This document shows positions 7,784 through 50,399 of a stretch of DNA of 64,000 nt, piece by piece. Source of the DNA: Bryoerythrophyllum caledonicum (lineage: Eukaryota > Streptophyta > Bryopsida > Pottiales > Pottiaceae); contig OZ020520.1 of the NCBI GenBank assembly GCA_963971425.1, forward strand, positions 9,342,553 to 9,406,552, in the 5' to 3' direction. The translations under genes and the position numbers were made by a program. Under the pieces are notes generated by a model. It was not told where the DNA came from. It saw only the letters and a list, made by a program, of their open reading frames with translations, and ran no database searches. The stretch's first letter is position 1. Each line of letters starts with the position of its first letter.

Positions 7784-7810
7784 AGCCTTAGTGGCTGTCG
7801 GTTTACCAAC

Positions 7811-11941: not shown

Positions 11942-11946
11942 AGGAT

Positions 11947-23818: not shown

Positions 23819-23844
23819 AACACCATATTCATTAAAATGAGACA
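23819..23844. repeat. G left terminal inverted repeat
   Basis: Begins AACACCATATTCATTAAAAT and continues to GAGACA. It matches the reverse complement of 43671-43696 at 25 of 26 positions, the difference being A versus G at position 4. A second GAGACA lies just inside. Confidence 0.85.
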
Positions 23845-24239
23845 AAATGTAAAAATTGAGACAAATACCCTAATATTTCGGAATAAAAACAAACGAAAAG
23901 TTACTGTAAACTCAAGCATACAACATACAACATAAGTGAAAACATCACAAATCCATCATATCAACAACATGATCAACCCAACACTCGACAACAGCATTAC
24001 ACACATATACTGGTAAAAGATAAGTACATTGACTGGAAAAATATGTTATTTCTCAGGGACTGGATCTAGTACAAAACCGAACCACTCAAAATATAATTCA
24101 AGTCACTGTTCACCTAAAGAACAAGGATAAACCACTACCTAATAATAGAATTAAAATATATTACTAATGTGTCTATAAGTAAGGGGAGAATTACCCAAGC
24201 GACTTCTATAAGACATCCAAAATGACACTATGACTATTA
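23845..24239. other. G left subterminal non-coding region
   Basis: AT-rich, with no gene. It holds the 3' flank of the minus-strand fusion gene. A degenerate GAGACA repeat lies near 23868. No palindrome copies were seen. Confidence 0.5.
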
Positions 24240-25032
24240 CTAAGACTTGGACAAATTTGATCCAACTCCACGTGCCTTCAAAAGCAACGCCTCTTGTGCT
24301 TTCACCTTTGCATATCCAATCATAATTTCTTTCCTCCGAGAGTAAGGTTTATACCAATCATCAACTTCCATGTACTTCACCTTCGTCGAAAGAGCTGATG
24401 GCGGACACTGATAACTATCGGGCCCAATACCATCACCTACATGGGACGACATAGACTTCCGACGATATTGTGCAGATGTTGAACTCGGACATCTTGGCTT
24501 AGTACCCAATGATTGAGTTTCCCACTCGCTTGGAGGAATAGGAGGTTTTCTAACTCCAAAAGCACCTTGAGATCGAGTACACTCTAGCCGCCGTTGCTTA
24601 ACAGGGGGGCAAGAAGGCTGAAGAGGCGTACAAGAAGATAGAATAGGATCAGAAGTATTATGCACAATTTCGTTCACCCGATTTCCTTCAACAGCTTCAT
24701 CCACATAAAGCTGCCGTTGAGAAGCACAATCGACTTTAGACTCTATAGAAGAGCACATCCGCTTGAGAGGAGAAGGGGATGCCACAGGAGTTATGCCAGC
24801 CCTACGCTCTGGAGGGCTATCCACGACACCATCATCGACCATTTGCTTAGAGAAGTCCATGATAGCAGAGGCAGCATCAGTTGCAGTGCACATAAGATAC
24901 GGCTTCGATTGATAGGACATGGCAATACCTCCATGAAGAGACCCCGAGTACTCAGAGAACAAGCCAACGTTGGAGGGTAGTACACTACAACCACTCTTGC
25001 ATGGGGTAGGAGTAATGCTAGCCTGCACAACC
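24240..25032 (-). CDS. G fusion gene, probable last exon
   Basis: About 264 codons ending GVGSNLSKS and a stop. A good acceptor (TTCTTATTGCAG) ends at 25033, directly upstream. The protein part is Ser/Pro/Cys-rich and mostly disordered, with a basic helical end (YKPYSRRKEIMIGYAKVKAQ). No known domain. It follows the HAD exon in the same direction across an intron of about 470 bp that contains degenerate palindrome halves and three copies of a 26-bp repeat (25035-25110). The phase with exon 5 is not cleanly matched, so it could also be a separate small gene. Confidence 0.5.
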
Positions 25033-25502
25033 TGCAATAAGAATGACATGACAAAAGAAGCAATAAGAATGACATGACAAAAGAAGCAATAAGAATGACA
25101 AATTTGCATTTAGGAAGAAAGCAATCCAACATAATGCTCGACCCAAGGATAATATACATGATCCAACGATAACAACTCTACTCGATCCACCGAAACATAC
25201 TAGCCTCGACTCAACCATATCTAGGAAGCCCGAAACCACAGTCAATAATAGGCTCGACACAAAAATAACTAAGAAGCCCTGAACCACATTCATAAGTATG
25301 CTAGATCCAACACTGAATAAACATCACCACGACTGAAACGAAGAGCATGTGAAATGACAATAGAAGACAAGACGGGAACAGTAAAAACAAACAAGACATC
25401 TATATATTCACTAATGAAAAATATATATACAAATTTCACAAAGGCGTATTGTTCGTCATTATAGAGTGTCTCTTGACGTACATAAAAATACACTTCTACA
25501 AC

Positions 25503-26293
25503 CTAGCTGATGATGCCGCATCATCTGGAATCTCAAACTCCGCACCAAGGTTCTTAGAGGAGAGGGCCATTCCATTCGTGATATACTTCATCGAAGGACT
25601 ATTAGGACTCAATGGACGACTGCCTATACGTTTGCTATTCACGTAATCCTTCAACTGCCCGACACCGCATTCAGATGTCAAACGTCGGAGCCATGGCAGG
25701 AGTTCTTGAATCAAAAACTTATCATTCTTAGCTCCGTGCCGCCATGAATGAAGGAAAATGGCATTGCCAGAAGGATTACAGACGCTCTTTTCCGGGTTGT
25801 CGTCCAAAAGTAGAGTGTTGTCGGAGTTCATGATACCGAAGTCATCTCGACGATTATACAACGAAGAAGACAACGTTTTTAAAAAGATCATCTTCTTCGA
25901 ATTATATTGAGACATCAAAAAAGTATTCTGCGACGTCTCAATCTTCCCACAACTCTCTTGACCAAGAATGAGATCTGGAGGAGACAGATCACGAAAGAGG
26001 TAATTTGCAATCTCCTCAACGGTGGACTTCATCATTGAGCTCCAGATGACAACAGAGTTTGAGAGATCTCTGATGGTCGCCAGAAACTCACGGACGCCAG
26101 GGCGAGTATATACAGCTTTAGGACCTATGTATGCAGGGATGGTGGGCGAAAACTCCACCCGACTCCCGGAGGACCTTGACGAGGCAGGTGCAAATGCTGC
26201 CTCGCACAAGATACCATTCAAATCCAGAACAATATTCAGCCACTTTTGGGGCCGATTGTTCTGGGCAATAGACACACTCCTAGAAGGATGATC
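25503..26293 (-). CDS. G fusion gene, exon 5: FCP1/NIF-like HAD domain
   Basis: The HAD phosphatases of the FCP1/NIF group remove phosphate from protein serine, classically the RNA polymerase II tail. Here the motif order is visible: WLNIVLDLNGILC (motif I), SVVIWSSM (motif II) and LLLDDNPEKS (motif III/IV acidic pair), then LIQELLPWLRRL, which matches the end of the NIF domain. Motif I reads DxN instead of DxD. DLNG variants occur in plant NIF-domain proteins, but the missing second Asp may lower activity. The acceptor ACCAG/GATCATCC at 26294/26293 is phase 0 and fits exon 4. The 3' end is either a stop just after ASSARL or a weak donor at 25502. Confidence 0.75.
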
Positions 26294-26347
26294 CTGGTAC
26301 ATGACCAACACAAAAAAGAGTCAATAAAAGGAAACATATGAATTTAC

Positions 26348-26488: not shown

Positions 26489-26728
26489 CTGAGGAAACAA
26501 TTGAGTAAAATTGAATTGTTAAACAATTCTATAGATTGATGAAAAAAACGTTTTACAAAAAATTTGTACATTCCTTCTAGTGTACATCAAAAACTGTAAG
26601 GATTCTACACCTGCAAGCCACCACAGAGAGAGATAAGACCTACTGTGCGCTAAAAGCAGTCATTAGAAAAAGACAGGGCTAGATAACATCAAGAAAATCA
26701 ATTAACAATTCCGAAAAGGCTAGCCAAC

Positions 26729-28397
26729 CTTATTTTCCTCTGCCGCGTTCTGCCCATTACCTTCTGGAGATGGTTCGTAGTCTACTCGATCTTCATCTGC
26801 AATGAGGACATCATCATGTTCCGAAGGCACATCCACCCTACAGGACTCTCCGACGCACTCCTCAGATCGTTTGACGCGAGCAGGTGATGGCTGTGGCGAC
26901 GACCTCGGAGCTGAAAGAGCCCCATGTTCAGCTCCTGCTAAAACCGCCGGAATATGGAGTACGCGACTGGGACTTCTATCCTCGGATCGAGGATACTCCA
27001 TTGATCCTCTTGCCGAGGAAGAGGGATCCACCGGAGCAAGGAGTACATCTTGATCGCTGGACGAGGTAGGATGGTAAGGATCTGCGTGGGAAGGGACCGA
27101 AGTCGGAATAGAAGACGAGCACCGCAGTAAAGCAGACGACGAAGGTACTGCAGGACAAAGAGCAAAGGCAGAACTATCCTCGATGCGAGGATAAATCGAG
27201 GTCTGAGGAATTGTGGACAACGTTGGACCCGATGAGGTTGACTGACTGAGTTGAACGGTTTGGGAAAACATTAAAGCCAACTCCGCTTTCATTAGAGCTT
27301 GAAGCTCAGCTCGAAGCTCAGTCGCCAGTCGGTCCTTCTCCAGAGCAGACTCTTCTCTCTGCTTCTCCAGAGCAGCCACCATCTCCACCTGCCTTTGCTT
27401 GGACGCTTCCAACTGGTCCAAAATGTCCTGCTTCTCCTTCTGCTCCCGAAGGCGCTTGTTGAGAATATGCCTAAAGTAGTCACCTCCAGGTTCATACTTT
27501 ACGGGCTCTCCAGGGGCAGGGGCTTCTCCGGCTGCGTTGAAGAAGAACGGATCGCCTGATCCGGAAGCGTCATCCAACCCCATTTCCACCAAAGGATCGT
27601 TATCATTCGGATTTGACGTCCAACTGGCTGGAATGGGTTCTCTTCCACCTTCGTCGTCACTCGAGTCCGACAGCAGAATGATGGAATCATCTGGCACATT
27701 GGGAGATGGTCCCCCAGGAGTCTCTAGAGCCGTTCGAGACTCAACCCCAACAAAGTCACGAGGCGTACTAGGAATACGGGAGGGCTCGACTTCATCACAT
27801 CTTTGCATATCCACATCTCTAGCACCAGGAGAGAGTGATCGAGATGATTCATTATTGTCGTTGAGCGCAGGGCGAGATGGACCTGCGTCATCACCGCGAA
27901 GGATCGAAAGATCCACACCCTCATTCGTACCATATGGATTAAAATCCAGTTGGTCCTCCAGGACAGACTGGTTTTCTGGGATTGGTGAATGGGGGGTAGG
28001 CCGTGGTGGAGGGGACTCCATGGTCTCATCTTGCTGGGGTAGAGCCGTTTCTGCATCCAATTGGGGAGTGGGGGCAGTACCAAGTTGTGCTCCGGTTCTG
28101 CGACTACGAAAACGATTTGGTGCAGTTCGAGAGGTCGAGGTAGTTCGTCCTACTGTCTGCGTGGTCCGTAAGTCCGAACTACTCCGGAGTGCTGCGTTCC
28201 GGGAGTTCCTACGAATTGAGGTGTCGCGAGGTTCAGCGGATTGCGGAACTCCGGTCACAGAAGGCATCGTCCCAGCGTACGCACAATCCCTATGAATGAA
28301 ATCATTCATGTCATACTTACATATCATTTTGGACTTGAACTTGTATGACAACCGGTAGTCTTTGTCAAATGACACCGTAGAATGAGGTTCCAAACAT
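26729..28397 (-). CDS. G fusion gene, exon 3: disordered and coiled-coil linker
   Basis: About 555 codons. Low-complexity S/T/P/R/D-rich sequence covers most of it. A coiled coil is predicted by eye around LREQKEKQDILDQLEASKQR and the following E/Q/L-rich 60 residues. The acceptor TTTATTTTGCAG at 28398 is strong. The end is tentative: AATAAG/GTTGGC at 26729 keeps phase 0 with exon 4, while the better-looking CCAGAAG/GTAATG at 26761 does not. Two palindrome copies lie in this coding exon and encode YPRIED and YPRSED. The long frame does not match the phase left by exon 2, so this copy seems to have a small frame change within the first 30 or so bases. Confidence 0.6.
26977..27193. repeat. Two palindrome copies inside exon 3 of the G fusion gene
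   Basis: Copies at 26977-26995 (spacer GAT) and 27175-27193 (spacer ATG). Both keep the full 8-bp arms TATCCTCG and CGAGGATA while lying in coding sequence. Confidence 0.85.
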
Positions 28398-28474
28398 CTG
28401 CAAAATAAAGAAAACAAATTTGTGAATGAGGTAAATGAGACAAACGCATTTAAACGGAAATGATGGTTATGAGT

Positions 28475-28631
28475 TTATCTTCGACCCGAGGATAATGAAC
28501 ATGATATCAAATAACTTTTACAAATTTGTCATAGAATAGGAAACGTTGATTTGAAGATATAGTAAACACGTAAGACACATCATGAATCCACAATACATAG
28601 TCAGATTAAGTTATCCTCGACCCGAGGATAA
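28475..28631. repeat. Two palindrome copies in intron 2 of the G fusion gene
   Basis: Copies at 28475-28495 (one arm mismatch) and 28611-28631 (perfect arms TTATCCTCG/CGAGGATAA), both with spacer ACC. They lie between the donor at 28660 and the acceptor at 28398. Confidence 0.85.
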
Positions 28632-28660
28632 ACTGAAATAATGAAGAGAGACTCAATTAC

Positions 28661-29983
28661 CTTGCTGGCCAACACAAACTTTGAGCCACAATAAACACCG
28701 AATACACGCTCTCCGTAATTGCAGAATTGTGAAATGAGATCGAGGTAGAACTCCATCCGCAATTCAGACCCGTGAACGGCGTAGCATGCCTCCAAGTACT
28801 TATTTTTCTCCGTGTAATAAGATGTATCCACGGCAGAGTAGCTTGGCATCACTTTCTCAACAAGAGAACTGACTTCTGGATGGTCACGTCGAATGAAGAA
28901 GAGCAAGTAAACCTCCGAACACTTGGACCTTGACGTCCCGAGGTTCAGTCGCTCGTACGCTGATGGCATGTACGCCGCCGAAATCGGGATGTACTTCTTC
29001 ATCCATTTCTCTGCATACCTTAGAGCATGCATCGCTCTGTCCTCAGAAGAGGTGATCCAAACCCAAACGGTAGGAGTGTTTAGAGTCGGGACCTTTTTCT
29101 GGGACAACAGTGTCTTCAGAAATGCGGAGAAGTATGGTTCCTCTGCAGAGTCGTCCTTGGACGACCACCCAGGGACCTGACGAAGGTCAAGCAGTCCAAG
29201 AGGCCACGGTCTGTCCTCCGGCGGTGGCTCAAAATACTCGCCAAATTTCATTTCTTCACCATCAAAGTCCCGAAGCTTGGATGGACCATCATGGTGAGAG
29301 AACTCGCTCTTAACGAAGAGAAACTTCGTGAAGAACGGAAGAACGTTGGGGAACTTCTCCACCAAGTGGGAAGCACGCTTTAACTTCCCCGCATTAGTCA
29401 ACCGCATGGAGAAGAACTCCTTGTCAGGACGACAAAGGAGCATGTTGTAAGTTGCAGAAGACACGCGATGATTTGCCTTCCACGACTTCCACACAACGTC
29501 GTCAACAAATCCGTCTGAAAGTAAAAACTTCAACAACGGGTCAATTGCGATCAACTCCTGCATGACTATGCGCTTCTTCTTCCGGCGGTCAACGCAGTCC
29601 TCGTAATGGAAGCAAGAGCCATGAACCACTGCCGTTCTTCGTAGAGTGACTTTTGGGTACCCATACGCTCGATCGCTGTCTACCAGGTAGGTAAACAAAT
29701 CTCTCAAGTCGTTATCGGTTAGGTGACCTAACCTCTTGAAGAATTCTCGATGGATCGGTGAAACTCTGCTTCCCTTGGCTTCGTTGTATGGAGCCATGGT
29801 GTCAGGGTTTATAATCTCACCCCTGCTGTGCAAGTCAAGGAAATCCTCCCACAATTTGAAGATGTCATCAGGAAGTGAGATAACCTTGATCTCATTTGTG
29901 AGGTCTGATGACTTGCTAACCTGCTTCCCTTCCTTTGTTGGATCAATATTCTGGAAGCGGTTTACAATGAGCTTGGAAAACAA
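28661..29983 (-). CDS. G fusion gene, exon 2: degenerate N6/N4-methyltransferase-like domain
   Basis: 441 codons with strong borders: acceptor TTTTCACTGCAG/TTG at 29984/29983 and donor CAGCAAG/GTAATT at 28661/28660, phase 0 at both ends. The C-terminal third resembles permuted DNA N6/N4-methyltransferases. A segment at LGLLDLRQVPGW occupies the place of the DPPY motif. TPTVWVWITSSEDRAMHAL is like the strand after it. GERVFGVYCGSKFVLASK is like the SAM-binding DPFxGSGTTxxAA motif, and exon 3 begins with a strand resembling its continuation (SFYGV). The catalytic DPPY is not preserved (DLRQ), so a binding role seems likelier than catalysis. The N-terminal two thirds is helical and charged, with no domain recognised. 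Confidence 0.45.
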
Positions 29984-30089
29984 CTGCAGTGAAAAAACAT
30001 GTTTTGTCAGGTCATTTTTAGACTGAAGAATCACACCACTCTAAAAAAATTGAGTCTTAATATTTTTCATACATCGCATTGCATACCAG

Positions 30090-30108
30090 TATCCTCGACT
30101 CGAGGATA
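30090..30108. repeat. Palindrome copy in intron 1 of the G fusion gene
   Basis: A perfect consensus copy, TATCCTCGACTCGAGGATA, inside the 146-bp intron 29984-30129. Confidence 0.9.
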
Positions 30109-30129
30109 ATCCTGAGGTGGATCACTTAC

Positions 30130-31506
30130 CAAGTACTTCTCAGTGTCGAATACAACGCCATTCATCCGAGTTGACCCTTCTTCTTGCTGGTAACTTGGAC
30201 GTCCGGAGTTAAGCCAAATTCGATGGCAACTAGCTATCTGATTACCCCAGGTAGGTTGCGCATGGTCGAGGTAGTTGGTGTCATTGTAGAACTTTGAGAT
30301 TCTTTGCAACTTTAAAGGATCTCTTGACCAGACCACGTATGCATCCCATCGCTGCAAGTCCCTCTTTCGAGATACTCCGCAATTTTCATTGTCTTGCAGT
30401 CTCTTGGATGCCTCAACGCTGTGTTGTCCGTTAATGAGCATGAACTTGCCATCCTTGATGGAATCCCATGAGATGGGCACAGCCTGAATCGGCTCACCAT
30501 GCTCATCAATTGGACAGATGCAGATCTTCTGACGTTGATTGACGTCGCCAAGCTGCACGAGGAAATCCATCGTGTTTAACACAATGGCTTCCTCCATCCC
30601 CCTGATTACGAACTGCGCCTTCGCGACAACGCACTGCTGAATTCGCACTGAATACGATGATTCTAATGGAAAGCAGCCTCTGCATTCCTCCCAAAACAGT
30701 CTTTGTGATTCCGTGATCTTCTGAAAGTCCACCTGCGGGTCATTTCTGGCTTTCTTTGGGGTCGTGGACCTCGTCATTGTGGATGAAGAGCTACCACCGG
30801 CTGTTGACTTCCGCTTCTTGTTTGAAGGTTCCCCCGGCGTAATAGGCGCAGTCGAAGGGCGCCTGGGAGGTGCACGACTTGAGGTACGGGGTGCGGTTGA
30901 ACCTGACGGATTTCCCTGGGCAGTTGATTTTCCTCGTGCTTGACGACGTGCACTGGCTTCGACTGGAATTGGTCGAGCCTCAAATGTTGACAGAAGTTGG
31001 TGAATCCGCGCTAATCGTCTATTTACTTTTTCAGCATCCACGTTCGTCCAGGGCTCATACTTTTCGAACGCCTCCCTTAGTGACCCCTGTCCGTTTCGCG
31101 TGACACTTTCAAGCAATTCGGAGAAGTCGAACTGACCGAGAGTGGGCCCAACTTTGACAACAATGGAGTGGCAATGTGGCAGATCCACTCCAGCTCCATC
31201 AAAAGCCTGAATTCCAAGAACTATGAAGTCTTGTCGTTGCTGCTCAACAAACGTAACTCTCTCTTTTCTGTTGAGTGGGACATAAGGGATTTCATCGTTC
31301 ACCTTGATGGTTATGTGAACAGACTTCCCAAACTTCGAGAACGACCAGCTTTTTACATTATTCTGGAACTCCCATAGAGTCCCATAGTTTTCAACGACAT
31401 CGTCAATGAACGGGGTTGGTGCTAGAGGATTCTCAAATCTCTGAATGAATATCTCGGAACCAGAGTAGTCGTAGGAATCCTCTTTTGGCTCAAGTGAAGA
31501 TGCCAT
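30130..31506 (-). CDS. G fusion gene, exon 1: ParB/sulfiredoxin-like domain
   Basis: 459 codons from an ATG at 31506 to the donor TACTTG/GTAAGT at 30130/30129. The ATG lies exactly at a probable intron acceptor (CATCTGTAG/ATGG). Residues about 1-180 are a globular region unknown to me. Residues about 185-260 are basic and low-complexity, with a likely nuclear signal (NKKRK). At about residues 340-370 is a ParB/Srx-type motif (DGKFMLINGQHSVEASKRL), matching the 'GxHR..A' core of ParB-like nuclease/NTPase domains, followed by WDAYVVW. ParB-like domains bind DNA palindromes such as parS, and phages fuse them to DNA methyltransferases, as seems to be the case here with exon 2. Confidence 0.65.
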
Positions 31507-31553
31507 CTACAGATGACACAATTTTGAACTGATTAGTACAATACTTTTACACG

Positions 31554-32043
31554 TATTCTCGAGTCGAGGATAACTGGTATCTTCTTATCTTCTTTATAAT
31601 TGACCACGGTTATGTTTTTTATCCTCGAGTCGAAGATAGCTTTCGTTTTGTTGTTAACAGGTTTCAGACTGTAACTAGGAAAAGCAAATATCACATATCG
31701 GTATTTGTAGGATTAAATTAGATGAGGTAGATTGATACCATGACGATGGTTATCGGTTCATGACTGTCAGCTCGACTGGTTAGAAAGTTTTGAATTACGT
31801 AAAGTAAACTTGACTTGTGCATGATTTGGGATGTTGGACTTGTTAGGTTGTTATTTAGGACTTTTATAGCAGCAAAATTTTCAAACAGACATTTTATCCT
31901 CGACTCGAGGATGAGCTACGACTCTTGTATGGTTGGATAACTCTTGTCCTGACCTTATCATACTTTCAGTAACGGTATAGTGATGTCAGACTTTATAATT
32001 TTGCACACTATCGTTAAGGGAGTTTATCCTCGACTCGAGGATA
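31554..32043. repeat. Four palindrome copies in the leader intron of the G fusion gene
   Basis: Copies at 31554-31572, 31620-31638, 31895-31913 and 32025-32043, with spacers AGT, AGT, ACT and ACT. Three have at most one arm mismatch. All lie between the leader donor at 32169 and the ATG at 31506. Confidence 0.85.
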
Positions 32044-32167
32044 AATTGCGCCTGCGGTATGGTTGTATACTGAAAGACACACTTTAATACCCTTGATTCT
32101 TATTATTAACAATATTAGATGTTCAACACTGGCCACTGCAAGTAGATTCATGATAGCTGGATTGCTC

Positions 32168-32400
32168 ACCTGTAAATTACCAACAAGTTTGTGGGTATGA
32201 TATGCAACTCAATGAGTTTCGAATCGCCCTGGAAAGCAAGTTGAAGTGGAGAACATCAGTTTCATGAGCAAAACTTAACACAACCAGACGCACACACACA
32301 AATGTACACATACGTTGGACCACACAAGCGTAAAACATCACATACATACTCATACTTTCAATAAACAATCTCAAAAGCAGAACTTAGTTGAAGTCGATTA
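32168..32400 (-). other. Probable 5' leader exon end of the G fusion gene
   Basis: On the minus strand TTTACAG/GTGAGC at 32170/32169 is a strong donor. Paired with the acceptor GTAG at 31507 it gives a leader intron of about 660 bp. The transcript start was not located; it may lie near 32400-33100. Confidence 0.45.
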
Positions 32401-32744
32401 CTTACTTGATGTGTATAGCGAATATCAATCGACAAGCTCCTCTACAGCACAACGACAGTATATGAAATCGGAGTTGAAATTCCTATCACTCGCAGAATCT
32501 AGGTACCCAGAAGCTTTGCAACACTAGAAGCACAATCTCCTGATTTGGTGAGACCTTCTTCAAAACCCTCGCAACACTCTACGCGATCTGCAAACCCTGA
32601 AATCTTGTACAAAACTCCTTTCAAATCAAACCCTAAGCTTGTACTTACTAATCACCTTCATTCTTACAATTACAACCGTAATCAGACCTCACAAAACCCT
32701 GGCGACACTCTTTCACACAGTGCTCAACGCAACCACAATTGACA

Positions 32745-33035
32745 ACGTATGTGTAGCACGCGCGCTCACACACACGCACTCACAAAGCAGCACTCACAAA
32801 GCAGCACTCACTCTCGCGCACTCACAAACATACACTGTCTCTCACGCACTCACAAACAAACGCTTACCCTAACGCACACACACCAACACACGACACACAA
32901 TGACACACACAAAAACCTAACACACCACCCTCACACAAAAACGAGCCCTCACGCACCCTCACAGCAAAACTCACCCTCATGCACCCTCATACAGAAACTC
33001 ACCGCACGCACCCTCATGCACATACAAGCACTCAC
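32745..33035. repeat. CACTCA/CACACA-rich simple repeat
   Basis: Repeated CACTCACAAA, CACACA and CACCCTCA words over almost 300 bp, just upstream of the minus-strand gene. On that gene's strand this is GTGAGTG-rich. The overlapping frames in several phases are a by-product of the repeat. Confidence 0.8.
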
Positions 33036-33039
33036 AGCT

Positions 33040-36000
33040 CGAACGAGGAGGAGGAGTGAGAAAGGCGGCGGCGGTTTTAGGTCAGGTTTGCGCCCATGAC
33101 CGCGCAATAGATATCATCCGTCGATCAACGGTTGCGACGGATGGATGACGAATCACATTAAGTTCAGAAGTTTCCTGGAAATGGTGCGTCGGTTTGTTTA
33201 ACACTTTGTAATTTTATTTTATATTTTCACCTTTTATCTTCATTGTCTTGCCTTTCCTTACTACTTTAGTTAACACCTATGGTACCGTATTAAGAGTTTG
33301 ACACCAATTCCCTTCAAACTTATTGGATTCTCTTGCTATAAAAAATGAAGGAGACGAAAACTTTTATTTTTAGTTTTGACCGTAGGATCTCAATTAACCC
33401 CTAAAGGACCACTACCACTTTCGCTCTAATACCAGTCCAAAACTGGCACTGCCAAAATGAGACATGAAAATCACATTTTAAAGTGAATTTCGGATTTTCA
33501 ACCGTAAGATCTTAAAATAGACTCGTACATGAACAAACCATTGAATTTTGGTTGCAATTCACTGCGCGGATTGATAGATTTAGTGTTTAAAGTCAAAACA
33601 ATTGTTCATTTTCTTTGAGTAGATAAGCAGAGTTTTACTTCATTTTGCATCAAATTTTTGCATTGTACAAGGTCTAAATCTTTTACCATTGTCTTAAGCA
33701 TGATGTTATTTCCCATTACACCTTTTTTTAGAGGTAAAAAGCGGTGTAGTATATTCAAAACAAGTGTGCAAGGAGTGGAGGTTCAAAAATTGCTATTTCA
33801 CGATTTTTTATTTTTGTGAACTACGTTTGTATTGAATGATAATCCAAACGGTCAAGATGAAGTTTTCACCACATATTGTTGTTGAAAAAATAAAAAGTGA
33901 AAAATATGTAAACCTTTAGGTTTTATGTAGAAAAGATGAATATTTTTTCCCCCCTTCCCCAACAATGTCTGAAAATGTTTGACTTGGAATAAAATGCCTT
34001 TTAACACTAAAGACAATAATTTTATTTAAACAATTCGAAAGAAGGAAATATTCTTTATTTGTGGGAAAAATCTCAATGTCAATAGAAACTTTTGTCAAAA
34101 ACTTTGGAAGTGCCGTGGTCCCCAGTTTTCGCTTTAAGTGATACTAACTTTCAAACCACAAATCCAAAAAATAAAATAATAATATCTCCACGAAGCTCTT
34201 ATCAGAGGCAATGTAGAATAAGAATTTTCTCCACTGTGTTTACTGCAGCTGCACAATTCGACTTCAGTTGGTGTCAAATTTTTGCAGTACACAACGTCTA
34301 AATCCATTACCATTTGTTAACCTCTAAAGGACCAAAGTCTCCTTCTAGGGGATTTTTTAATTTTTGGGCAGGCTCCTAAAATTCGGAAAAAATCAATTTT
34401 CTCTGAAATTTTTATTCTAGATTGCCTTTCATAAGAGCTTCGTGGTCATATTTTTATTTTATTTGTTGGATTTGTGGTTTGAAAGTTTGTACCACTTATA
34501 GTTTTTGAGGGAAATTGTCAAGGAACTTTAGGGGTTTAGCATGATGTTAGTTCCTTATACACCGAATTTTAGATGTAGAAGGGGAGTGTAGCATATTCAA
34601 AACAATTTTGCAAGGACTAGAGGTTTAAATTTGGCAAATCCACGCTTTAATCCTTCAAAACTTAAAATGTTAGAGATTGATAATCCAAATGGTCAAAATG
34701 AAGGGTTACACCACATATTGATTATTATGAAGAAATTAAAAAGTGAAAACTATAAAGATCTCTAGATTTGATGTTGAAAAGAAGAAGTATTTTTTTATAT
34801 CTCGCCCGACAATGAGTGACGATGTCTAAAAATGCTTCCCTTAGTTCTACGCTATTTCTCAATCAAGTCGCAATCATTTTTTTGATACAGAGAAGGAAAA
34901 TAATAGTACTTGCGAGTATTGAAATTCTCACATTCACTAGAGTGTCCTACCAAAGGTTTCTCGAGCATGGGGACGGAATTTATAAAATCCCTCCTCCCAT
35001 ATTCTCCATTTTCTAAGAAGCTCATTGTAAGGACTTAGGCTATTTATTAGCTAAATACAAGGACTGCTATCTCATATTTGTGGCACTGGTTGTCATAACC
35101 CCTAGAAATCTAAGCGTTTTTGGGACCTCCAAATCTAAAAGTTGCCATTTTCTACCACCTTGTAGAATTTGAGGTAAGGTCAAATATGTTTGAATGTTGG
35201 ATGTTTATCATATTATGTAAAATCATAACTTTCAAAGTTGATGCATATTATTTTATAGCTTAGAATATATAGTCTATCTTATATAAATGGAGACTTGATA
35301 ATTGTTACCCCATACATTTTGCTCATATTATATTTCTCTAAGAAGTAGATAAAGTTGAAATTTCACTTGCAAAATTGCAAAACCTCATAGAATTATTTCA
35401 ACATTCATCTAAATTGTTTTATAGAAGAATGTGTAAAATGATTGAATGTAATAAATTTGTGAATAATCTCAAGTTGTCTAATAAAAATAGTGTATTGTAT
35501 AAAATTTTCACACTATGAACGTCAAAAGCATGGAGGCGAACGTCCTTCCATTTACTGCATTTCCTAGTATGTTGCTGCAATAATGTTTCTTGCAAAGCTA
35601 TTCATGGCTCAATGTCCCAATATATTATTCGATTTTTACCTAATCCTGGTATGAAATGTGATTTTAGAAAGTATAATTCTACATAGAAATCTTACCAGAC
35701 CAATTAAGAATTTCATTTGTTGCATGAAACCAAAATCAATAAAAATTCGTTTTTGGCAACATCTTGGAATTAATTGATAATATATTTAAACCTTTATCTC
35801 TAAAAGAAGAAGGTGAAATATATTTAAAATTCATGCATTTTTTATGAAAGTGAAATATCATCTTGGGGTATGCACTAGCAAAAGTTGTAGAAATCACGTG
35901 TGATTAAAAGTACGGTCTAATTTATTCCTTACATTGGATAAATATTGTAACAAAAGCACATATTTATGACATTGCTATTTCATTATGAAACATGGTTATA

Positions 36001-37900
36001 AGCATGATAATAGCAAACTTTGATTCAATACTAAGGATTAATGTAATCAATTGTAAAGAAGAAGAAGAAGAAGAACGTCGGTCTCCAAAGGAGGCCGACG
36101 TGCATAAAGTGTCTGTTGGTTCCACTACTAAGACCATGCCCATCGGATTGGGAATTAGTGATCCACTATACATATTAAATATCATGGAAAATGGGGCATA
36201 GGGAGTGAATGATAGATTCTTATGAATATTGTTTGTCTACATTTCTAGAGCTTGAGCAGCTACATGTATAGTTTTTATGAATGTTGCATGTGTTAGATGC
36301 TTTGCAAATTTGAAATTTTTATACTCCTAGAATACATGCATCTTTGGTTGCACACTTTTCTAAAGTATTTAAGAGAACAATATGCTTTGATTTCTCCCAA
36401 AAACTCGTGGTTCTTGACTACGAAGACTTTTTAGATTCTTGGAATCTGTTTTTTCAACGCAGATTCATGTTTTTGTAGTGTTTGCAATGTGTGGATTTGT
36501 TTTAGCATTCATTATCTTGCCTTTCTTTTTGTTATATTTCTTCAACTTCTATGGACTTGCACTATTACGTTCAAGTGGTAAGAAGATATACATAAACAAT
36601 AATAGTTACTTTTTTTATGACCCAATAAAGAAATGATGAATACCTATGTAGTGCAAAACTTCACTATGATAAACAAACTTTATTTTAAAAAACACAATGC
36701 TATGTTATCTTTTCTAGTAGGTAAATAAATAGTCCTCCGACAAGACCGCAGTACTGCAGGTGTATACAAATTTGAAGGAGGAGTGCCCCCCCTCGAGAAT
36801 ATTATTTTTTTGGTCTTGTACATAGAAAGACACAAGTGAAAATGTATTTGTAGTTCTTTCAAAAAAATTATCCGTTTTGTAATTTCCATTTCCATTGACA
36901 ATTTGTTTGATGATTGTCACTTTCCAAGAGTGGCTTTTGATTTAGACTTTTATTTTATTTTATTATGTTAGTATAAATTTTTTAGATAAAGTTAAATAAT
37001 TTCAATTTTAGTTGAATATTTTTTAAAACGTGTGCTCGAACTAGCCATTAAGTAAATTTTGATTTGATATATTTTTAAATATTTGGCTTTTTGGTTTGTA
37101 AAAAAAAATTCTATTTATATATTTCCCTTGACTGATTTCAATTTAACAAGATTCAGAAGTCTTCCTTCATTTGGCAAATTCTATCGGAAATATATGTGTG
37201 AGACACAAGAAGTTATTCCCTTCATTAAAGTTCTTTGCATATTCAAGAGTAATTGAAATAGTGAAAATTGTAATGAATTTAAGTAGTTTCTATCTTGAAT
37301 GAAAATTAGATTTTGTTCAATGTTTAATTCACAAAGAATATTAAAACGATTAAATAAGATAAAATCTTCTGAAATTCTAATTACTTTTTATTCAAATTAT
37401 TTTAATTTACATAAAGTCAATTTTAGAGTTAATTCAATATATTTTTTCCCCTAATTTACCAATTTAAGATATGCTTTTAATCGATATTTATATAATCGTT
37501 TTTGTTTATTTTTAATTATTTTTAATTATGAGAATTGATATATTTGCTTTGTATTTTTTTTTTGGAATTTTTATTTAAATAAGAATATTAAAACGAATTA
37601 AAAAGTTATAATGTTTTAAAATTACAATTTTTTGTTATTTAAATTATTTTAAATTACATGAAGACAATTTTAGAATTCATTTAGTTTCTTTAATACTCTA
37701 ATTTAGTAATTTTAAAAGTATTTTCTATCGTTATTTTAATAATCGTTATTTTTTTCCAATTTAAAAAAAATTAATTAAGCAAGAGAAGTTTTTCTTTGCT
37801 TTATATTTTTGTTTTTTTTTTGGAACACAAATGATAAAGATTGGTAGCTAACTTTATTTTGTTTTATTTGGGTTGGTAGCTTTCTAAATTAGTGTGACCC
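33040..37900. other. G central AT-rich spacer
   Basis: About 4.9 kb with no gene I can support. It contains a GC-richer patch at 33040-33150 with a CATCCGTCG...CGACGGATG inverted repeat (33115-33143), which may belong to the fusion-gene promoter. A degenerate direct duplication relates 33650-33900 to 34270-34760. There is an inverted repeat at 34135-34500, and very AT-rich DNA from 36900 on. Short frames at 35992 and 36439 have no recognisable product. Confidence 0.5.
34135..34500. repeat. Inverted repeat with about 100-bp arms (MITE-like or foldback)
   Basis: The arms at about 34135-34232 and 34396-34500 are reverse complements with scattered mismatches. The shared core CCACGAAGCTCTTAT is followed by AGGCAAT.TAGAATAA. 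The loop is about 160 bp. No coding content. Confidence 0.7.
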
Positions 37901-37919
37901 TGATACCGAGAAATGCTCT

Positions 37920-38143
37920 TCGTCAGCTGAAAAGTAGTGACATCAATAAAGTATAATTTTTTTCCCTCCAAAAAATGTTGCCGTTGAAAATTTCCTTTCC
38001 CGCCCACCTCCGGTTTTCATGCACAGCTCCGCTCATGACTTTCATACTCAGTTCAAGAGTGTCATTTCGTACTCTCTCCTCTCTAAACATATCAGCATCA
38101 CCTCGGCTCCCTTGTTCGTGCATGAAGCATCTGCTTCTTCGGA
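37920..38143 (+). other. Possible 5' leader exon of the G transposase gene
   Basis: A pyrimidine-rich, GC-richer block (CTCTCCTCTCTAAAC and similar) interrupts AT-rich DNA and ends at a fair donor, TTCGGA/GTAAGA, at 38143/38144. Joined to the acceptor TTTTGTAG before 40008, it would give a leader intron of about 1.86 kb that holds nine palindromes. Confidence 0.4.
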
Positions 38144-38467
38144 GTAAGATACTGTATTTGTCGATATTGTTGACTTAGGGTTTAATGTAGAAGTGTAATT
38201 GTGTGCGACTGTGTTTCTTGTACGTTTGCTAGATTCATATTCTCCTATAGTATGCCATTGTCACACAGAACATTGATCTGTGGGGCGCTTCTTGTGTGCT
38301 CTCCTTGTTGCGGCCGTAGGCATTATGTTTATTACAGTTGTGTTGTCGGACCTCCGTTTATGGTGTGAAGTGCATAGAGAGTGATCTCCTTACAAAATGT
38401 TTCGAAAATTTCGGGAGCACTGTAGCATTGCGATCCTCCGTGATTATTGTGTGTCTGTTGAAATTGT

Positions 38468-39636
38468 TATCTTCGGGTCGAGGATACCAATATTTCACGT
38501 GATTGTATTAGAGGGTAACGTAACTATCTAGTTAGTAAAATTTTCATCACATATATCCTCGACTCGAGGATGCAACTTGAGTTAAATCATACTTTTCCAC
38601 ACGTGAATAATTATGTCATTACTCATAATTGGAAATAAGATCTTTTTAAAACAGGTAAGTTATCCTCGGGTCGAGGATAACTGAATCCAATTTGTTGCTA
38701 TTCAGAAATCAAAAATCTAAAAATTTCAGACACACTCATTCTATTCAGAATAATAATGACTGTTTGTAATTTCCTCAAACATATCTGATTGGTAAATTAT
38801 TTTAAGTATATTCTCTTGGTGAGGATATAATTTATTGGATGGAACAGATTCCTACACATATACTTCTGTGAATATCCTCGACTCGAGGATAACTGCATTC
38901 ATTTTTTGGATTTACGAATTGCATGACGAAAGTATAATATAAATTTATCTTTACTATGGCTACGCTTGTTTGTCGAATTTGATATAATATTTGTGCAGAT
39001 AATATTCATCTATTATCCTCGTGTCGAGGATAATTGGAAGTGTCCTAATTGAGAGAAGTATTATGTCATTGATGAGATATTCCAGACCTTTATGTATAAA
39101 TTGTGATGATTTCAGTCAGCTTGTAACTGTCTAGTAAGAAAATATTTCATCAAGTTTATCCTTGACTCGAGGGTAAAACTTTAGTAAAATCGTGCTTTAC
39201 CACACGTGATAAATGATGTCTACACTGACGATTAGGTGTCAGACTATTGAGTAAACATGTTAGTTATCCTCGACTCGAAGATATCTCTTCTCAACCAATT
39301 ACCTTTCAAAAATCTAAATCCAAAATATCACAGACATTCTCATTAAGTCCAATAGAATGATGACTGTTTTATAATCCTTGAATCAATGAGATTGGAATAT
39401 TATTTTTGGATTTTCTCATGCCGAAGGTAACTTTATTGGATGTTTTTAGTTTCCTATCGAAATGCTGTTTTGGTTATCCTCGACTCGAGGATAACTGGAT
39501 TCAACCTTCTTATCCAATATTGCATGACAAAGGTTTTGATCAGATTTATCTTGACTTTGGTTTTGCAATGGTATTGTCCATTTTGATCGACTCTGTGTGT
39601 ACACATTATTTACAGATTATCCTCGCGTCGAGGATA
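38468..39636. repeat. Nine-copy palindrome array in the leader of the G transposase gene
   Basis: Copies start at 38468, 38554, 38661, 38873, 39014, 39157, 39265, 39475 and 39618. Each is 19 bp, arms TATCCTCG and CGAGGATA around a 3-base spacer (ACT five times, otherwise GGT, GGT, GTG, CGT). Five or more have perfect arms. Each copy holds at least two CpG in DNA that is otherwise AT-rich and CpG-poor. Confidence 0.92.
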
Positions 39637-40007: not shown

Positions 40008-42821
40008 ATGGAAGAAGCGTCATTTGATAGCGGTTTTCAAGTGCGACCAACCTTGCCTCCAGGTGTTGTTGCATGTGAGGGTATTCCTCGAGCGTCTTGG
40101 TTTTCAAAGCGCGTTGTCCTTCGAAACTTATCAGGCGCTGATGTTGGAATTGGCCTCTGCCAGAGTGTTGATTCTGGTTTTGTTCCTGAAACTGGAGGTC
40201 AACCACTTGGAAGTGATCATGTTGCGGTTATGATTGCCGAGTCCTTAAATGAGGATGACATTCCTTTGAATTGGATGTTCGCTCTCCGAGCATGGCCAAT
40301 TCGACACGTCTTCCTTCGTAATGTGAGTTTGTATGACCAAGAACAAACGAGCATTTACAATGCTGCTCTTAAAGTATTTCGTCGTGGACCAAGAGTTGGT
40401 GTTCGACAGTATGAAAGCAATCGTCAAAGGGCAGAGCATCATTCCCCATCGCATAAGAAAGTCCTACTCACTACACAGTCGATTAACTCTGTGGCAAGCA
40501 CCGTCTGTTGTCTGAGAAACTGTACCCAACGATTTCCACGGTGTACAATTTCGGTACTTCGCTCTCAAATTTACCATGACATTGGAGGTGTTTATTTTCG
40601 GAAACATGTTTTGCTTGATGTGCATAGGCAGATGCACATAGATTCCAATGGAAACCGTGTGGTGACGCTTGATGGAATTGATGTTTGCCAAGATGCATGG
40701 TGTACTATCATGGGGGTTAGCCGAGCTACATTCTACCGGTACAAAAGTGATGCAAAGGATGAAGTTCGAGCAGGGCCTCATGGCAATAGTGGCACAAAGA
40801 AGCCCCGCACTCATACTCTACAGGCAATTGCTACTTTGCACAACATACTTGACGATGCTGCCGATCATAGTCCTAATAAGACTACTACACTTGGCAGTGG
40901 GGAGAAGGTCATCTCAAAACATCTTCCGTCATCCTTTCAGTGGAGTGCAGTGCTACCCAAAGTGAATGCGGTGAATGCTAGGTTTGGCCTCAAACCAGTA
41001 TCCTTATCAGGTCTTAGTCGAATTCGAAGCTCTGAATTTGAACAATTCTCCACTAAGAAGCCTGGTGACAACTTTGCTCGTTGTGGGAGATGCGACCAAC
41101 TTAAGCAATTGAAGAAGGCTACTACGCGAGGATCCTCCGCATATCAAATGTGGGAAGTCAAATTACAGTTACATCAAGCCTCTCAACAAACTCATCGTAT
41201 CCTATATTATGGCAACCGAAAGAACTCAGAGGAAAATCCAGATGAGGTTGTGTGCATCATTCATGATAAAATGGACCACAGCAAAACCGCATCTCCCCAT
41301 TTTTCTCATAAGAATAAAGCAACAGAGTCTTTTATGAAACTTCCTGTGGCTGTAACAGGGATGATTGCGCATGGACATGGAGATGTCCGCTATGCACATT
41401 ATAGTCTTGACATCTTTCCCACCGACTCGAATCACACAGTTGGATCCATTGCTAAGTTACTTCGGGACTTAGAGAGACCACCCGTGTATTCCTCTCGTCA
41501 ATTATTTGTAGGAGGGAGAGCTTCTCCTCTCTTTGAGGCAGTGCTTGCAGATGCTAATATGTGCTTTGGATCCCTTGCAGTTCAACCAGTTGAACCTATT
41601 CCTGCCAAACAATTGCCGCCAATTCTCCAGATGCAGTTGGATAATGCCACAGGGGACAATAAGAATAGATATTTATTTGCTTTCTTCTCCCTCCTTGTTC
41701 ATATGGGTATTTTCCGTGAAGTGTACGTCAACTTCTTGCTTGTTGGTCATACCCACGAAGATATTGATGCAATGTTTGGAAGATGGAGTACCAAACTTAA
41801 GTCAAATAGCTATCCAACGATCCCACTCTTGATGAAATCATTCATGGATGCTGAGGAGAAGCCAGTTATTCCACACCTCATTGAAGAGGTGCCTGACTTC
41901 AAGAGCTTTTTAGAAGGCTATTTGTGTGTTGGCAAGGAGGCCCTTACAGGTCATACAAAGGGCCAACAATTCAAGTTTTACAAGGACTCCGATGGTTTGC
42001 CCAAGATGCAGTACAAACTGCTTTGTACAGATAGGGATTGGTTGCCAATAGAGAATGGAGGAATTCAACTATGGAAGGTGGCGGCGGATGGTAGGCCAAT
42101 ATTGCCTCGTGGAGAGCCACTTCCCCTCATTCCACAACGTCATGAGAATTATGATGAGGTTATAAAGGGCATCTCTGGGTTTCTAAGTCTCTGGGAGTCT
42201 ATGGCAAACGAGGATCTCTCAGGTGAATACAGGAGGAAGAATGAACATATTATGTACTATTGGAGGGGTGTTAAGGCTGCTCTCGACGTGCCATTGGAAG
42301 AATCGCCTTCCCTACGAACGGGATTTTGGCCACTATCTAGATACGCACCATCAATGGTGGATGAATTTGAGATTGACGGTACATTGAGAGAGGATTACGC
42401 AGAAGACCGCCCATTCATTGGACAACGACGTCATTGTCCCCCTCCATCGTTTCGGGTCGGTAGAGATGTGCAGGAGGGCTATTTACTTGCGATACGTCCT
42501 GCTGATGGAGATTTGCGCCCATTTTGGATTGCCTTAGCATTGACAAATCCGCATCCAGATCGTGAACATTCTCATGAGATTAAAGTGCAATACTACAAAC
42601 CTGCATCCATGCGTCATGTGAGTCCGGACACATACGAAGGGTGGGATTCTAGTCATGGGAATAATTGGGTCGAAGAAACTGAATCTGAACCAACGTGGGT
42701 GTATACAGATTGTATTATAACTGCGTGGAAACCTAGGTTGCGTGGGAGCTTGAGCTCGTCTAGACCCAAAATTCCAAAATCACAGGTGGACATCATCAAG
42801 GCATCTTTAGCTGATTATTAG
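40008..42821 (+). CDS. DUF7869-like transposase of G (937 aa)
   Basis: One uninterrupted frame; the ATG directly follows an acceptor (TTTTGTAG/ATGG). Residues about 150-320 resemble an N-terminal DNA-binding region, with a helix-turn-helix-like VCQDAWCTIMGVSRATFYRY. A CxxC pair (ARCGRCDQLKQLK) lies near residue 365. The RNase H-like core follows: IIHDKMDHSK near residue 418, LQMDNATGDNKNR near 542 and LLVGHTHEDIDAMFGRW near 580. These match the spacing of the DUF7869 family, with three candidate catalytic Asp residues. The C-terminal 300 residues are less clear. DUF7869 proteins are widespread and repetitive in mosses, oomycetes and some animals. The transposase role is inferred from the fold-like motifs and from this protein lying inside a TIR-bounded element. 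The frame looks intact. Confidence 0.85.
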   Translation: MEEASFDSGFQVRPTLPPGVVACEGIPRASWFSKRVVLRNLSGADVGIGLCQSVDSGFVPETGGQPLGSDHVAVMIAESLNEDDIPLNWMFALRAWPIRHVFLRNVSLYDQEQTSIYNAALKVFRRGPRVGVRQYESNRQRAEHHSPSHKKVLLTTQSINSVASTVCCLRNCTQRFPRCTISVLRSQIYHDIGGVYFRKHVLLDVHRQMHIDSNGNRVVTLDGIDVCQDAWCTIMGVSRATFYRYKSDAKDEVRAGPHGNSGTKKPRTHTLQAIATLHNILDDAADHSPNKTTTLGSGEKVISKHLPSSFQWSAVLPKVNAVNARFGLKPVSLSGLSRIRSSEFEQFSTKKPGDNFARCGRCDQLKQLKKATTRGSSAYQMWEVKLQLHQASQQTHRILYYGNRKNSEENPDEVVCIIHDKMDHSKTASPHFSHKNKATESFMKLPVAVTGMIAHGHGDVRYAHYSLDIFPTDSNHTVGSIAKLLRDLERPPVYSSRQLFVGGRASPLFEAVLADANMCFGSLAVQPVEPIPAKQLPPILQMQLDNATGDNKNRYLFAFFSLLVHMGIFREVYVNFLLVGHTHEDIDAMFGRWSTKLKSNSYPTIPLLMKSFMDAEEKPVIPHLIEEVPDFKSFLEGYLCVGKEALTGHTKGQQFKFYKDSDGLPKMQYKLLCTDRDWLPIENGGIQLWKVAADGRPILPRGEPLPLIPQRHENYDEVIKGISGFLSLWESMANEDLSGEYRRKNEHIMYYWRGVKAALDVPLEESPSLRTGFWPLSRYAPSMVDEFEIDGTLREDYAEDRPFIGQRRHCPPPSFRVGRDVQEGYLLAIRPADGDLRPFWIALALTNPHPDREHSHEIKVQYYKPASMRHVSPDTYEGWDSSHGNNWVEETESEPTWVYTDCIITAWKPRLRGSLSSSRPKIPKSQVDIIKASLADY

Positions 42822-43670
42822 ATTTCAACGGGTTTTTGTGGATTGAAGTTATTCCTGAATATGAAATTGGTGGGAGTACGTGTGGTTATTTGAATTTGTT
42901 TTGCCCTTGGATGGAATATCCTTTTAAGGCTTGTAACAAACTCAATGTATCTAATATGTGATGCAATTGTAGACTGTTGCATGCGTAGCATATTTGCAGA
43001 CAAAATTTAATAACAAGTTGTTGTTTCATCAAGTGATGTATTGTGTTGCTTTCCATAATATAGAACGTTCCTATTATTTTGTTACATTGATGACAAATGA
43101 ACCTTGGTCCAGATTGTCACTGCAATTGATTGTGCATTTATCCTTGATGCTTTGATATTTCCTTTTAATAGTAAGTTCTTAATGAATTGCTACAATATAT
43201 GTTATCTTCTCAATGACCATTTTGGCTAGAAGTTGTATAAGCTTTTGAAATTTGAAAATATTTCTCTTCAATATGTGAAGATATGCATTCTAGGTGGTTG
43301 GTGAATGAGTGTATATGTGTATTTCAGTCCAATTTTGAGTCCAACTAGGGTTCCTAAAATTCATTGTCGCATGTGTTTTCATGAGGTCAAGTTTATTCTT
43401 GCTATGCAATTTTTTTCATGGTGTATTATTGTTCCTTAAATAATATGCTCCATATCTAAATATATTTTTTGATACTCTACTATCTTTACACACGAAATCA
43501 TATTAAATGGCCTACTCAATTAGATACGAAAATTATTCAACAATCTATGATATGTCCGGATTCTTCAAGATTTTGAAAAGAGTTTGAGTCTCAATTTAAT
43601 ATATAGTCTCAAATTAATGAAATAATGAAATGCCTAAAATTAGGTACCATGTTAAAATGAGACTCTGAAA
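42822..43670. other. G right subterminal non-coding region
   Basis: AT-rich 3' flank of the transposase gene with no further gene. A small hairpin AAAATGAGAC...GTCTCATTTT overlaps its inner border with the right TIR. No palindrome copies. Confidence 0.5.
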
Positions 43671-43696
43671 TGTCTCATTTTAATGAATATGGCGTT
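43671..43696. repeat. G right terminal inverted repeat
   Basis: The reverse complement begins AACGCCATATTCATTAAAAT and continues to GAGACA. It pairs with 23819-23844. GCTA follows at 43697. Confidence 0.85.
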
Positions 43697-44369: not shown

Positions 44370-45060
44370 TCGTGCTCGTCTTCTCTCCCTGGTGCTCTTC
44401 ACTCCGCAGCCCGTATCTTCGTCACCACAGCTTCGATCCGCACGCTCTTGAGCTTGTTGAAAAGCCAACGCTTAGATCAAGCTACTCCTAAAATCTTAGC
44501 TTGACTGGACCAAAACTCCGCAACTGACAAGGGGAAATCCGAGGCCGTGCGAGATCCACCGCCGATCCTCCAGCTGGTCGTCCTCGCTCCGCAGCTTGTA
44601 TCTTTGTTGTCACAACTTCGATCCGTATGCTCTTGAGCTTGTTAAAAAGCCAACGCTTAGATCTAACTACTGTAAGAAATTTAGCTTGATTGGACTAAAA
44701 CTCCGCGACTGAGAAGGGGAAGTCCGAGGCCGTGTGAGATCCGCCGCCGATCCTCTGGTTGTCCTTGCTCCGCAGCTTGTATCTTTGTTGTCACAGCTCT
44801 GATTTGCATGTTCTTGAGCTAGTTAAAAAACCAACGCTCTAATCTAAACTACGCCTTAAAATTCAGCTTGATTGGACAAAAACTCCGCGACAGACGAGGG
44901 AAAAACCGAGGCCGTGTGAGATCCGCCACTGATCCTTTAGCTGGTCATCCTCGCTCCACAGCTTGTATCTTCGTTGTCACAACTCCAATTCACATGCTCT
45001 TGATCTTCTTAAAAAGCCCACACTCTGATCTAACTACCCTACAATTTTCGTAACAATTGG
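44370..45060. repeat. Tandem array in solo LTR A, about 185-bp unit, four copies
   Basis: The phrase CTTGAGCTTGTTAAAAAGCC recurs with variations near 44450, 44633, 44813 and 45000. GAGGCCGTGTGAGATCC recurs near 44541, 44727 and 44910. Solo LTR B has an unrelated array at the same LTR position. Confidence 0.85.
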
Positions 45061-50378: not shown

Positions 50379-50399
50379 ACAACAAGCATCAAGATCCGG

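Follow-up and report, generated by a model that had tools for sequence, protein, structure and literature searches.

Why should a moss transposon carry, between its own ends, many copies of one long palindrome? The question is raised by a 64,000-nucleotide stretch of the Bryoerythrophyllum caledonicum genome (contig OZ020520.1, positions 9,342,553 to 9,406,552; the whole stretch is hereafter called the window), in which the 19-bp palindrome TATCCTCG-NNN-CGAGGATA was counted 18 times with at most two mismatches, in agreement with the approximately 18 copies claimed in a preliminary description of this DNA; ten of the 18 have perfect arms. All 18 lie between the terminal inverted repeats of a single element of about 19.9 kb (Table 1). 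The explanation which we consider probable is self-recognition, in which a dimeric protein made by the element would bind the palindromes of its own lineage and thereby keep or make the element's own genes expressible. As a part of this explanation, and held with the same confidence, the window would contain one copy of a large family of DNA transposons with terminal repeats of 22-26 bp.

The palindrome is far too frequent in the window to be there by chance: with three mismatches allowed, 20 matches were obtained against 0.10 expected, the maximum in 100 shuffles being one, and half-sites set at any spacing from 0 to 11 other than 3 gave zero matches in the window within two mismatches. The preliminary description presented it as 8-bp arms around a variable 3-bp centre; the palindrome itself is real, but the information content of the 19 sites used for this estimate (at most three mismatches) is better described by 9-bp arms around one free base, TATCCTCGA-N-TCGAGGATA, since the outer positions of the centre are biased, with A in 13 and T in 15 of the 19 sites on its two sides. 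The flanks of these sites hold little information. The sites had also been confined to positions 28475..39636, where 16 of the 18 are indeed found, while those at 26977 and 27175 lie outside. In the following, palindrome types are designated by short labels derived from the outer bases of the half-site (TATCC, TCAGC, TTAGC), the element of the window being of the TATCC type, or type A.

The sites are placed mainly in non-coding parts of two divergent genes, an exon-1 gene reading leftward and a DUF7869 gene reading rightward. Intron 1 holds one of them and intron 2 holds two, four precede exon 1 on its 5' side, and nine are 5' of the DUF7869 gene; two sites that fall within the exon-3 open frame form the exception to this placement. 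The predicted exon limits were taken from donors and acceptors in the window sequence and from relatives, and the leftward parts may represent either one gene or several. It is by the splice donor common to the relatives that site 30090, formerly counted within the exon-1 product, falls in intron 1. All sites 5' of the DUF7869 gene except that at 38468 belong to a tandem duplication of about 604 bp. Nearly the same site spacings recur on contig C1 of the same genome (4766491-4767449) beside a DUF7869 gene 92-95% identical to that of the window, and three other loci on C1 display the same divergent gene order.

The extent of the element follows from the 22-bp core of its terminal repeat, which is found again, with 0-2 mismatches and with other flanks, at the outer termini of other element copies of this genome (L022, L026, L028, L030, L034, L036, L037 and L039). 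GCTA on both sides of the window element is a candidate 4-bp target duplication; the second copy in L028/L030 reads TTAT/TTGT. Near both ends (23823-23870 and 43560-43692) there are repeats TTAAAATGAGAC / AATTGAGAC, a possible transposase recognition unit apart from the palindromes. All 18 palindromes are more than 3 kb away from both terminal repeats (for the nearest ones, about 3.1 kb on the left side and 4.0 kb on the right), and the repeats at the ends have units of their own, of the TGAGAC type; the palindromes as terminal or subterminal transposase sites were therefore set aside as the principal interpretation. The same distances bear on the rather unlikely alternative that the DUF7869 protein, the putative transposase, itself binds the palindromes, either in transposition or in order to repress its own gene. 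The densest cluster of sites is situated directly 5' of this gene, another DUF7869 gene, separate from this one, is preceded by a cluster of the TTAGC type at the corresponding position (see below), and the protein gives a weak match to a resolvase-type helix-turn-helix (HTH; Pfam, E 0.043), but the ends are occupied by other units and palindromes are kept in the introns of the other gene, both of which speak against this alternative.

Genome-wide counts were made over 437,360,962 bp in 894 contigs. The exact TATCC palindrome occurs at 1911 places in the moss genome, and its reversed control at 0. Surroundings were read for the 50 matches listed, all on contig C1 and reaching 16.27 Mb, as 20 stretches around the first clusters. 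Whether the palindrome is common outside the element was one of the points on which the preliminary description had suggested that self-recognition be judged. Among the matches listed, 44 of the 50 places are in or adjoin a stretch with a window-type element gene (for three of the 44, this gene is no more than a weak phosphatase match of 39% in L031), but six do not, one being flanked by a DUF7869 gene and by an exon-1 gene, perhaps of one element, two being lone sites in satellite-like repeats (L020, L021), and three occurring in L034, where the stretch has no window-type gene. In viral contigs, one lone TATCC palindrome was found in a stretch of 62% GC and taken as chance, and there were none of the TCAGC or TATCG palindromes. 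Exon 1 itself has at least 89 scored matches in the moss genome, the window's included, and the five others that are 98-99% identical to it point to recent activity of the element.

Conservation of the palindromes was assessed at several distances, and, in accordance with the comparison of arms with flanks proposed earlier, the arms proved the better conserved both in the duplication and in the intron-1 sites across copies. Between the two halves of the ~604-bp duplication, four paired sites have 60 of 64 arm positions identical and 9 of 12 in the centres, against 357 of 539 other aligned columns. The upstream and intron DNA of L002, whose protein is 75% identical to that of the window, aligns poorly with the window, and L002 has five sites with perfect arms, four upstream and one in intron 1, the intron-1 donor being recognised. 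A palindrome near the donor is present in intron 1 of L024, L028, L032, L035 and L037, and intron 2 holds a perfect palindrome in L028, L035 and L037 and slightly changed ones in L024 and L032. Twenty further copies were then picked from the own-genome matches by the exon-1 protein match and not by the palindrome; as L040-L044 are near-copies of the window, they do not amount to 20 independent cases. In all 20, the intron-1 stretch contains a site within two mismatches. A perfect site is present in 17 of these stretches; L045 is among them by virtue of a second site placed more distally, its near site showing one mismatch. In L046, L049 and L053 the site differs at one or two positions. The intron-1 donor was recognised by its pattern in 17 of the 20 copies, and in all these 17 the site begins 19-20 nt after it. 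No TCAGC or TTAGC palindrome occurs in any of these 20 stretches.

These data bear on the notion that the palindromes are a tiny parasite or satellite spreading inside the elements and functionless for them, which we regard as hardly credible. Satellite-like repeats with a similar-looking palindrome do exist at two places in the genome, but conservation of arms over flanks, the position after the intron-1 donor fixed even in distant copies, and the fact that changes of the outer bases are mostly matched between the two arms and go along with the gene tree (see below) all argue against it. The two places are the C1 stretches L020 (4658) and L021 (4389), which consist of satellite-like repeats of another palindrome, GTTATCCCCGGGCCGGGGATAAC, single units of which match the TATCC pattern (about 300 bp were read around each).

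Different palindromes were observed in related lineages. Two contigs, L003 and L004, encode proteins 25-26% identical to exon 1 and keep the order exon 1, exon 2, exon 3, L003 having also a phosphatase-resembling frame. Each carries six perfect copies of another palindrome, TCAGCTCGA-N-TCGAGCTGA (TCAGC type), in intron 1, intron 2 and other places, with no TATCC-type site within three mismatches. L002, L003, L004 and L019 are contigs of a binned 'Synechococcales cyanobacterium' genome (AVDCRST_MAG81) with transposon genes like those of the window; since these genes bear introns, the contigs look like mis-binned moss DNA and the bin contaminated. Within this bin, the TCAGC palindrome is found at 12 places, all in L003 and L004. 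Two other exon-1 relatives come from Physcomitrium patens.

The TCAGC palindrome also occurs at 825 places in the genome of B. caledonicum (control 0), where a search with the L004 protein gave at least 85 matches. Seven of these matches (type B, 44-50% identical) are located on C1 below 18 Mb, and in all seven a TCAGC site is found at a distance of no more than 600 bp. For the five of them below 16.27 Mb, the nearest listed TATCC site is at least 28 kb away; the other two are situated beyond 16.27 Mb, past the listed TATCC sites. Conversely, each of the five type-A copies checked on C1 has a TATCC site no more than 40 bp away, while TCAGC is missing up to a distance of 15 kb; as four of these copies had been found through their TATCC sites, they are not an independent sample. 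A third type, TTAGCTCGA-N-TCGAGCTAA (TTAGC), stands 5' of another DUF7869 gene in L019, with one perfect site and two with one mismatch, and occurs twice in L031; in L034, one perfect and several degenerate TCAGC-type sites surround a DUF7869 gene 42-63% identical to that of the window. The leftward gene and the DUF7869 gene are thus both tied to palindromes in separate lineages. Among the TATCC, TCAGC and TTAGC types, which are the ones seen in DNA (two of them counted genome-wide), the core TCGA-N-TCGA is constant and the outer bases vary.

A wider sample was provided by proteins, as many database relatives of exon 1 read through into intron 1. Among 97 exon-1 relatives, 68 have a tail of sufficient length, and 35 of these 68 tails back-translate to a perfect 19-bp palindrome with the core TCGA-N-TCGA, against a mean of 0.31 and a maximum of 2 after shuffling; the rows are not independent, since they include near-copies and the proteins of the window and of L002-L004. 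The parts before the donor (38,204 residues) yielded eight such back-translated palindromes. Peptide patterns allowed the labels TATCC, TATCG, TTAGC, TCAGC, TTAGA, TCAGA, TCAGG and TTCGG to be assigned to 39 of the 97 rows, these labels being looser than the DNA types: TTAGA rows P0061, P0064 and P0069 and TATCG row P0010 fall short of the perfect form, which P0098, a row with the TCAGA label, reaches only by way of a more distant TCAGC site. Mapped on the exon-1 tree, the labels required 9 changes versus 23.3 when shuffled, also with the tails removed; TTAGC, TATCC, TATCG and TCAGG needed one change each, TCAGC and TTAGA two. Apparently, the outer half-site bases mostly follow the gene tree. 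This is where binding by a host transcription factor exploited by the elements meets its difficulty: placement in promoters and introns would suit such a factor, but the families within one genome differ in the outer bases by gene clade, where one motif would be expected if a single host factor were responsible, and we consider this explanation very improbable.

Since conserved, lineage-specific palindromes are present at the element copies, something presumably reads them, probably as a dimer and changing with the lineage, and a protein of the element is the simplest candidate. Most likely this would be the product of the leftward gene or genes, which are predicted to encode an N-terminal domain without a family, a methylase-like domain that has probably lost catalysis, a region resembling a coiled coil, and a phosphatase of the NIF type, while the rightward DUF7869 gene would encode the transposase. 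The name of a ParB-like domain, given to exon 1 in the preliminary description, is not supported by profile searches: no ParB or ParB-HTH family was found in 17 exon-1 homologs with Pfam, nor in a few of them with NCBIfam and PHROGs. A search of PDB sequences with the exon-1 and exon-2 alignments gave no meaningful match, and none of exons 1-3 of the window could be credibly assigned to a Pfam family. Six open reading frames of the element contained no ParA (Pfam) and no TET/JBP dioxygenase domain. A phage origin of exon 1 was rejected: comparison by tblastn with 50,697 phage records returned nothing at E up to 1, and exons 1 and 2 had no relatives in viral contigs. A 'Tugs' match of one exon-2 relative (E 3.6e-4) was taken as chance.

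Exon 2 with the start of exon 3 has as its sole Pfam match the N6/N4 DNA methylases (PF01555), a match of the C-terminal part obtained with the spliced pieces of L003 and L004 (E 7.5e-4 and 0.013) at 19.9 and 15.9 bits, below the curated cut-off of 26.7. The spliced piece of L003 had no match in NCBIfam or PHROGs, and the unspliced exon-2 rows no methylase match in Pfam. The catalytic motifs of N6/N4 methylases are DPPY and GSGT. At their presumed places, the exon-2 alignment differs from these enzymes in having DL(R)- and G-K-like sequences instead; at presumed motif IV, the placement of which is inferred, D285 and L286 are invariant and R287 nearly invariant. Because these sequences are kept at the places of the catalytic motifs, the region looks like an anciently dead methylase-like enzyme.

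Considering these features, the palindromes are putative binding sites of a dimeric element protein, and we infer that its binding in 5' regions and introns would keep or make the element genes expressible, by anti-silencing or activation. The half-site would consist of the constant TCGA and a lineage-specific outer part, for which reason each family would recognise only its own copies. The opposite effect, where an element-encoded repressor binds the sites and limits the element's own expression as a copy-number control, appears unlikely to us: it shares the comparative evidence of self-recognition for expression, and palindromes 5' of both genes are operator-like, but sites in introns and in the exon-3 frame are less usual for operators, and the numerous exon-1 matches, with five nearly identical to the window's, speak of recent spread. 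A more detailed idea, offered only tentatively, is that a dead methylase carried by the moss transposon acts as a modular reader, one part of which would read the TCGA half-core, a CpG site, and another the family-specific outer bases, giving several mutually blind codes per genome; the NIF-type phosphatase may then act on the transcription machinery at the bound sites, freeing only own copies from silencing.

Several observations weigh against self-recognition by the leftward gene product. Among the matches listed, the six of 50 TATCC places not beside a window-type gene have been mentioned, and 25 of the 50 TCAGC places lie more than 3.5 kb from all seven type-B exon-1 matches. Of the intron-1 tails, 33 of 68 contain no compatible palindrome, and the TCAGA label is unclustered, with three changes for three rows. 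Apart from the sub-cut-off methylase match, the leftward gene has no known DNA-binding family in Pfam, NCBIfam and PHROGs being likewise negative. Finally, exon 3 of the window copy has a one-base frame disagreement near its start, where four near-identical copies (L060-L063) are open, so that the window copy need not make the full protein.

The preliminary description had likened its proposal of self-recognition to the VANC proteins and motifs of VANDAL elements, and this part is borne out by the clustering at copies, the intron and promoter placement, the conservation of arms and a related family with its own palindrome, but the ParB/parS part is not, as no ParB family was found. VANDAL elements are MULE transposons. 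The moss element differs from them in possessing DUF7869 and not a MULE transposase, together with methylase-like and phosphatase domains, and in that binding is presumed on comparative grounds; neither VANC homology nor a MULE-type transposase was found in it by Pfam, which recognised DUF7869 and no credible family in exons 1-3. In Arabidopsis, the genes VANC21 and VANB21 contain the VANC21 motif in their introns and VANA21 has it upstream, and this motif differs from that of VANC6 (PMC5735166). The likeness lies in a short, element-restricted motif repeated in non-coding parts, in introns of one gene and 5' of another, partly by tandem duplication, and differing between related families (PMC5735166). 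The moss site is a 19-bp palindrome with a constant core, whereas the VANDAL motif is described there as having 9 bases and being arrayed in one orientation (PMC5735166). By analogy, a mode of action like that of VANC/VANDAL fits the moss element; membership in that group is not claimed because the protein families differ, and the moss system is apparently independent.

With ParB-parS the element has in common that its sites are palindromic and that one of its proteins contains a GQHS motif, resembling that of ParB. It differs in having the sites 5' of genes and in introns, and in the missing ParB, HTH and ParA families described above. As to other transposons with genes related to DNA-modifying enzymes, TET/JBP genes are carried by KDZ, Plavaka and other transposons (PMC12730594). 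Like these (PMC12730594), the moss element is a DNA transposon, one gene of which is related to a DNA-modifying enzyme, but this gene is methylase-like with changed catalytic motifs and not a TET/JBP dioxygenase, and the element has its own palindrome code. In the open-licence literature, judged by titles and abstract openings, no description of such a moss system was found, nor any paper on DUF7869. It is an open question how a transposon can affect its own copies and yet leave the host undisturbed, VANC/VANDAL being a known plant case. The long, countable sites of the moss elements, with three variants at the DNA level and 1911 and 825 sites for two of them, make the evolution of specificity measurable and accessible to experiment.

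Table 1. Features of the window element, in positions of the window.
Feature	Position	Strand	Remarks
Palindromes, at most two mismatches (18 starts)	26977, 27175, 28476, 28612, 30090, 31554, 31620, 31895, 32025, 38468, 38554, 38661, 38873, 39014, 39157, 39265, 39475, 39618		
Palindromes, three mismatches	25133, 38809		
Four palindromes 5' of exon 1	31554..32043	+	starts 31554, 31620, 31895, 32025
Palindrome in intron 1	30090..30108	+	20 nt after donor
Nine palindromes (at most two mismatches) and degenerate 38809	38468..39636	+	5' region of DUF7869 gene
Exon 1	30130..31506	-	INGQHSVEAS motif; region formerly called ParB-like; no family; frame of 479 amino acids including intron read-through
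Intron 1	29984..30129	-	donor GTAAGT; limits from sequence and relatives
Exon 2	28661..29983	-	methylase-like region, catalytic motifs changed
Intron 2	28398..28660	-	two palindromes, 28612-28630 and 28476-28494
Exon 3	26720..28397	-	low-complexity, coiled-coil-like; two palindromes in open frame, 27175-27193 and 26977-26995
NIF-type phosphatase domain (PF03031)	25496..26320	-	Pfam E 6.1e-15
Last open frame of leftward gene(s)	24240..25109	-	no family; adjoins other genes in other copies
DUF7869 protein, 937 amino acids, putative transposase	40008..42821	+	PF25273, E 4.8e-46; transposase role inferred
Left terminal inverted repeat, AACACCATATTCATTAAAATGAGACA	23819..23844	+	25/26 complementary to right end
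Right terminal inverted repeat	43671..43696	-	complementary to left end

Between the two genes there is an AT-rich stretch (33600-34800) which may represent a nested element; its direct repeats are spaced by about 842 bp, and it also has an inverted pair of 96 bp (34132-34227 / 34406-34501). Outside the element, tandem arrays extend over 44402-45048 and 47752-48346, with 185-bp units and units of about 32/152 bp, and two retrotransposon regions are present, one at 6887-12651 with gag, reverse transcriptase and integrase, and the other at 49539-54526 with gag and reverse transcriptase.

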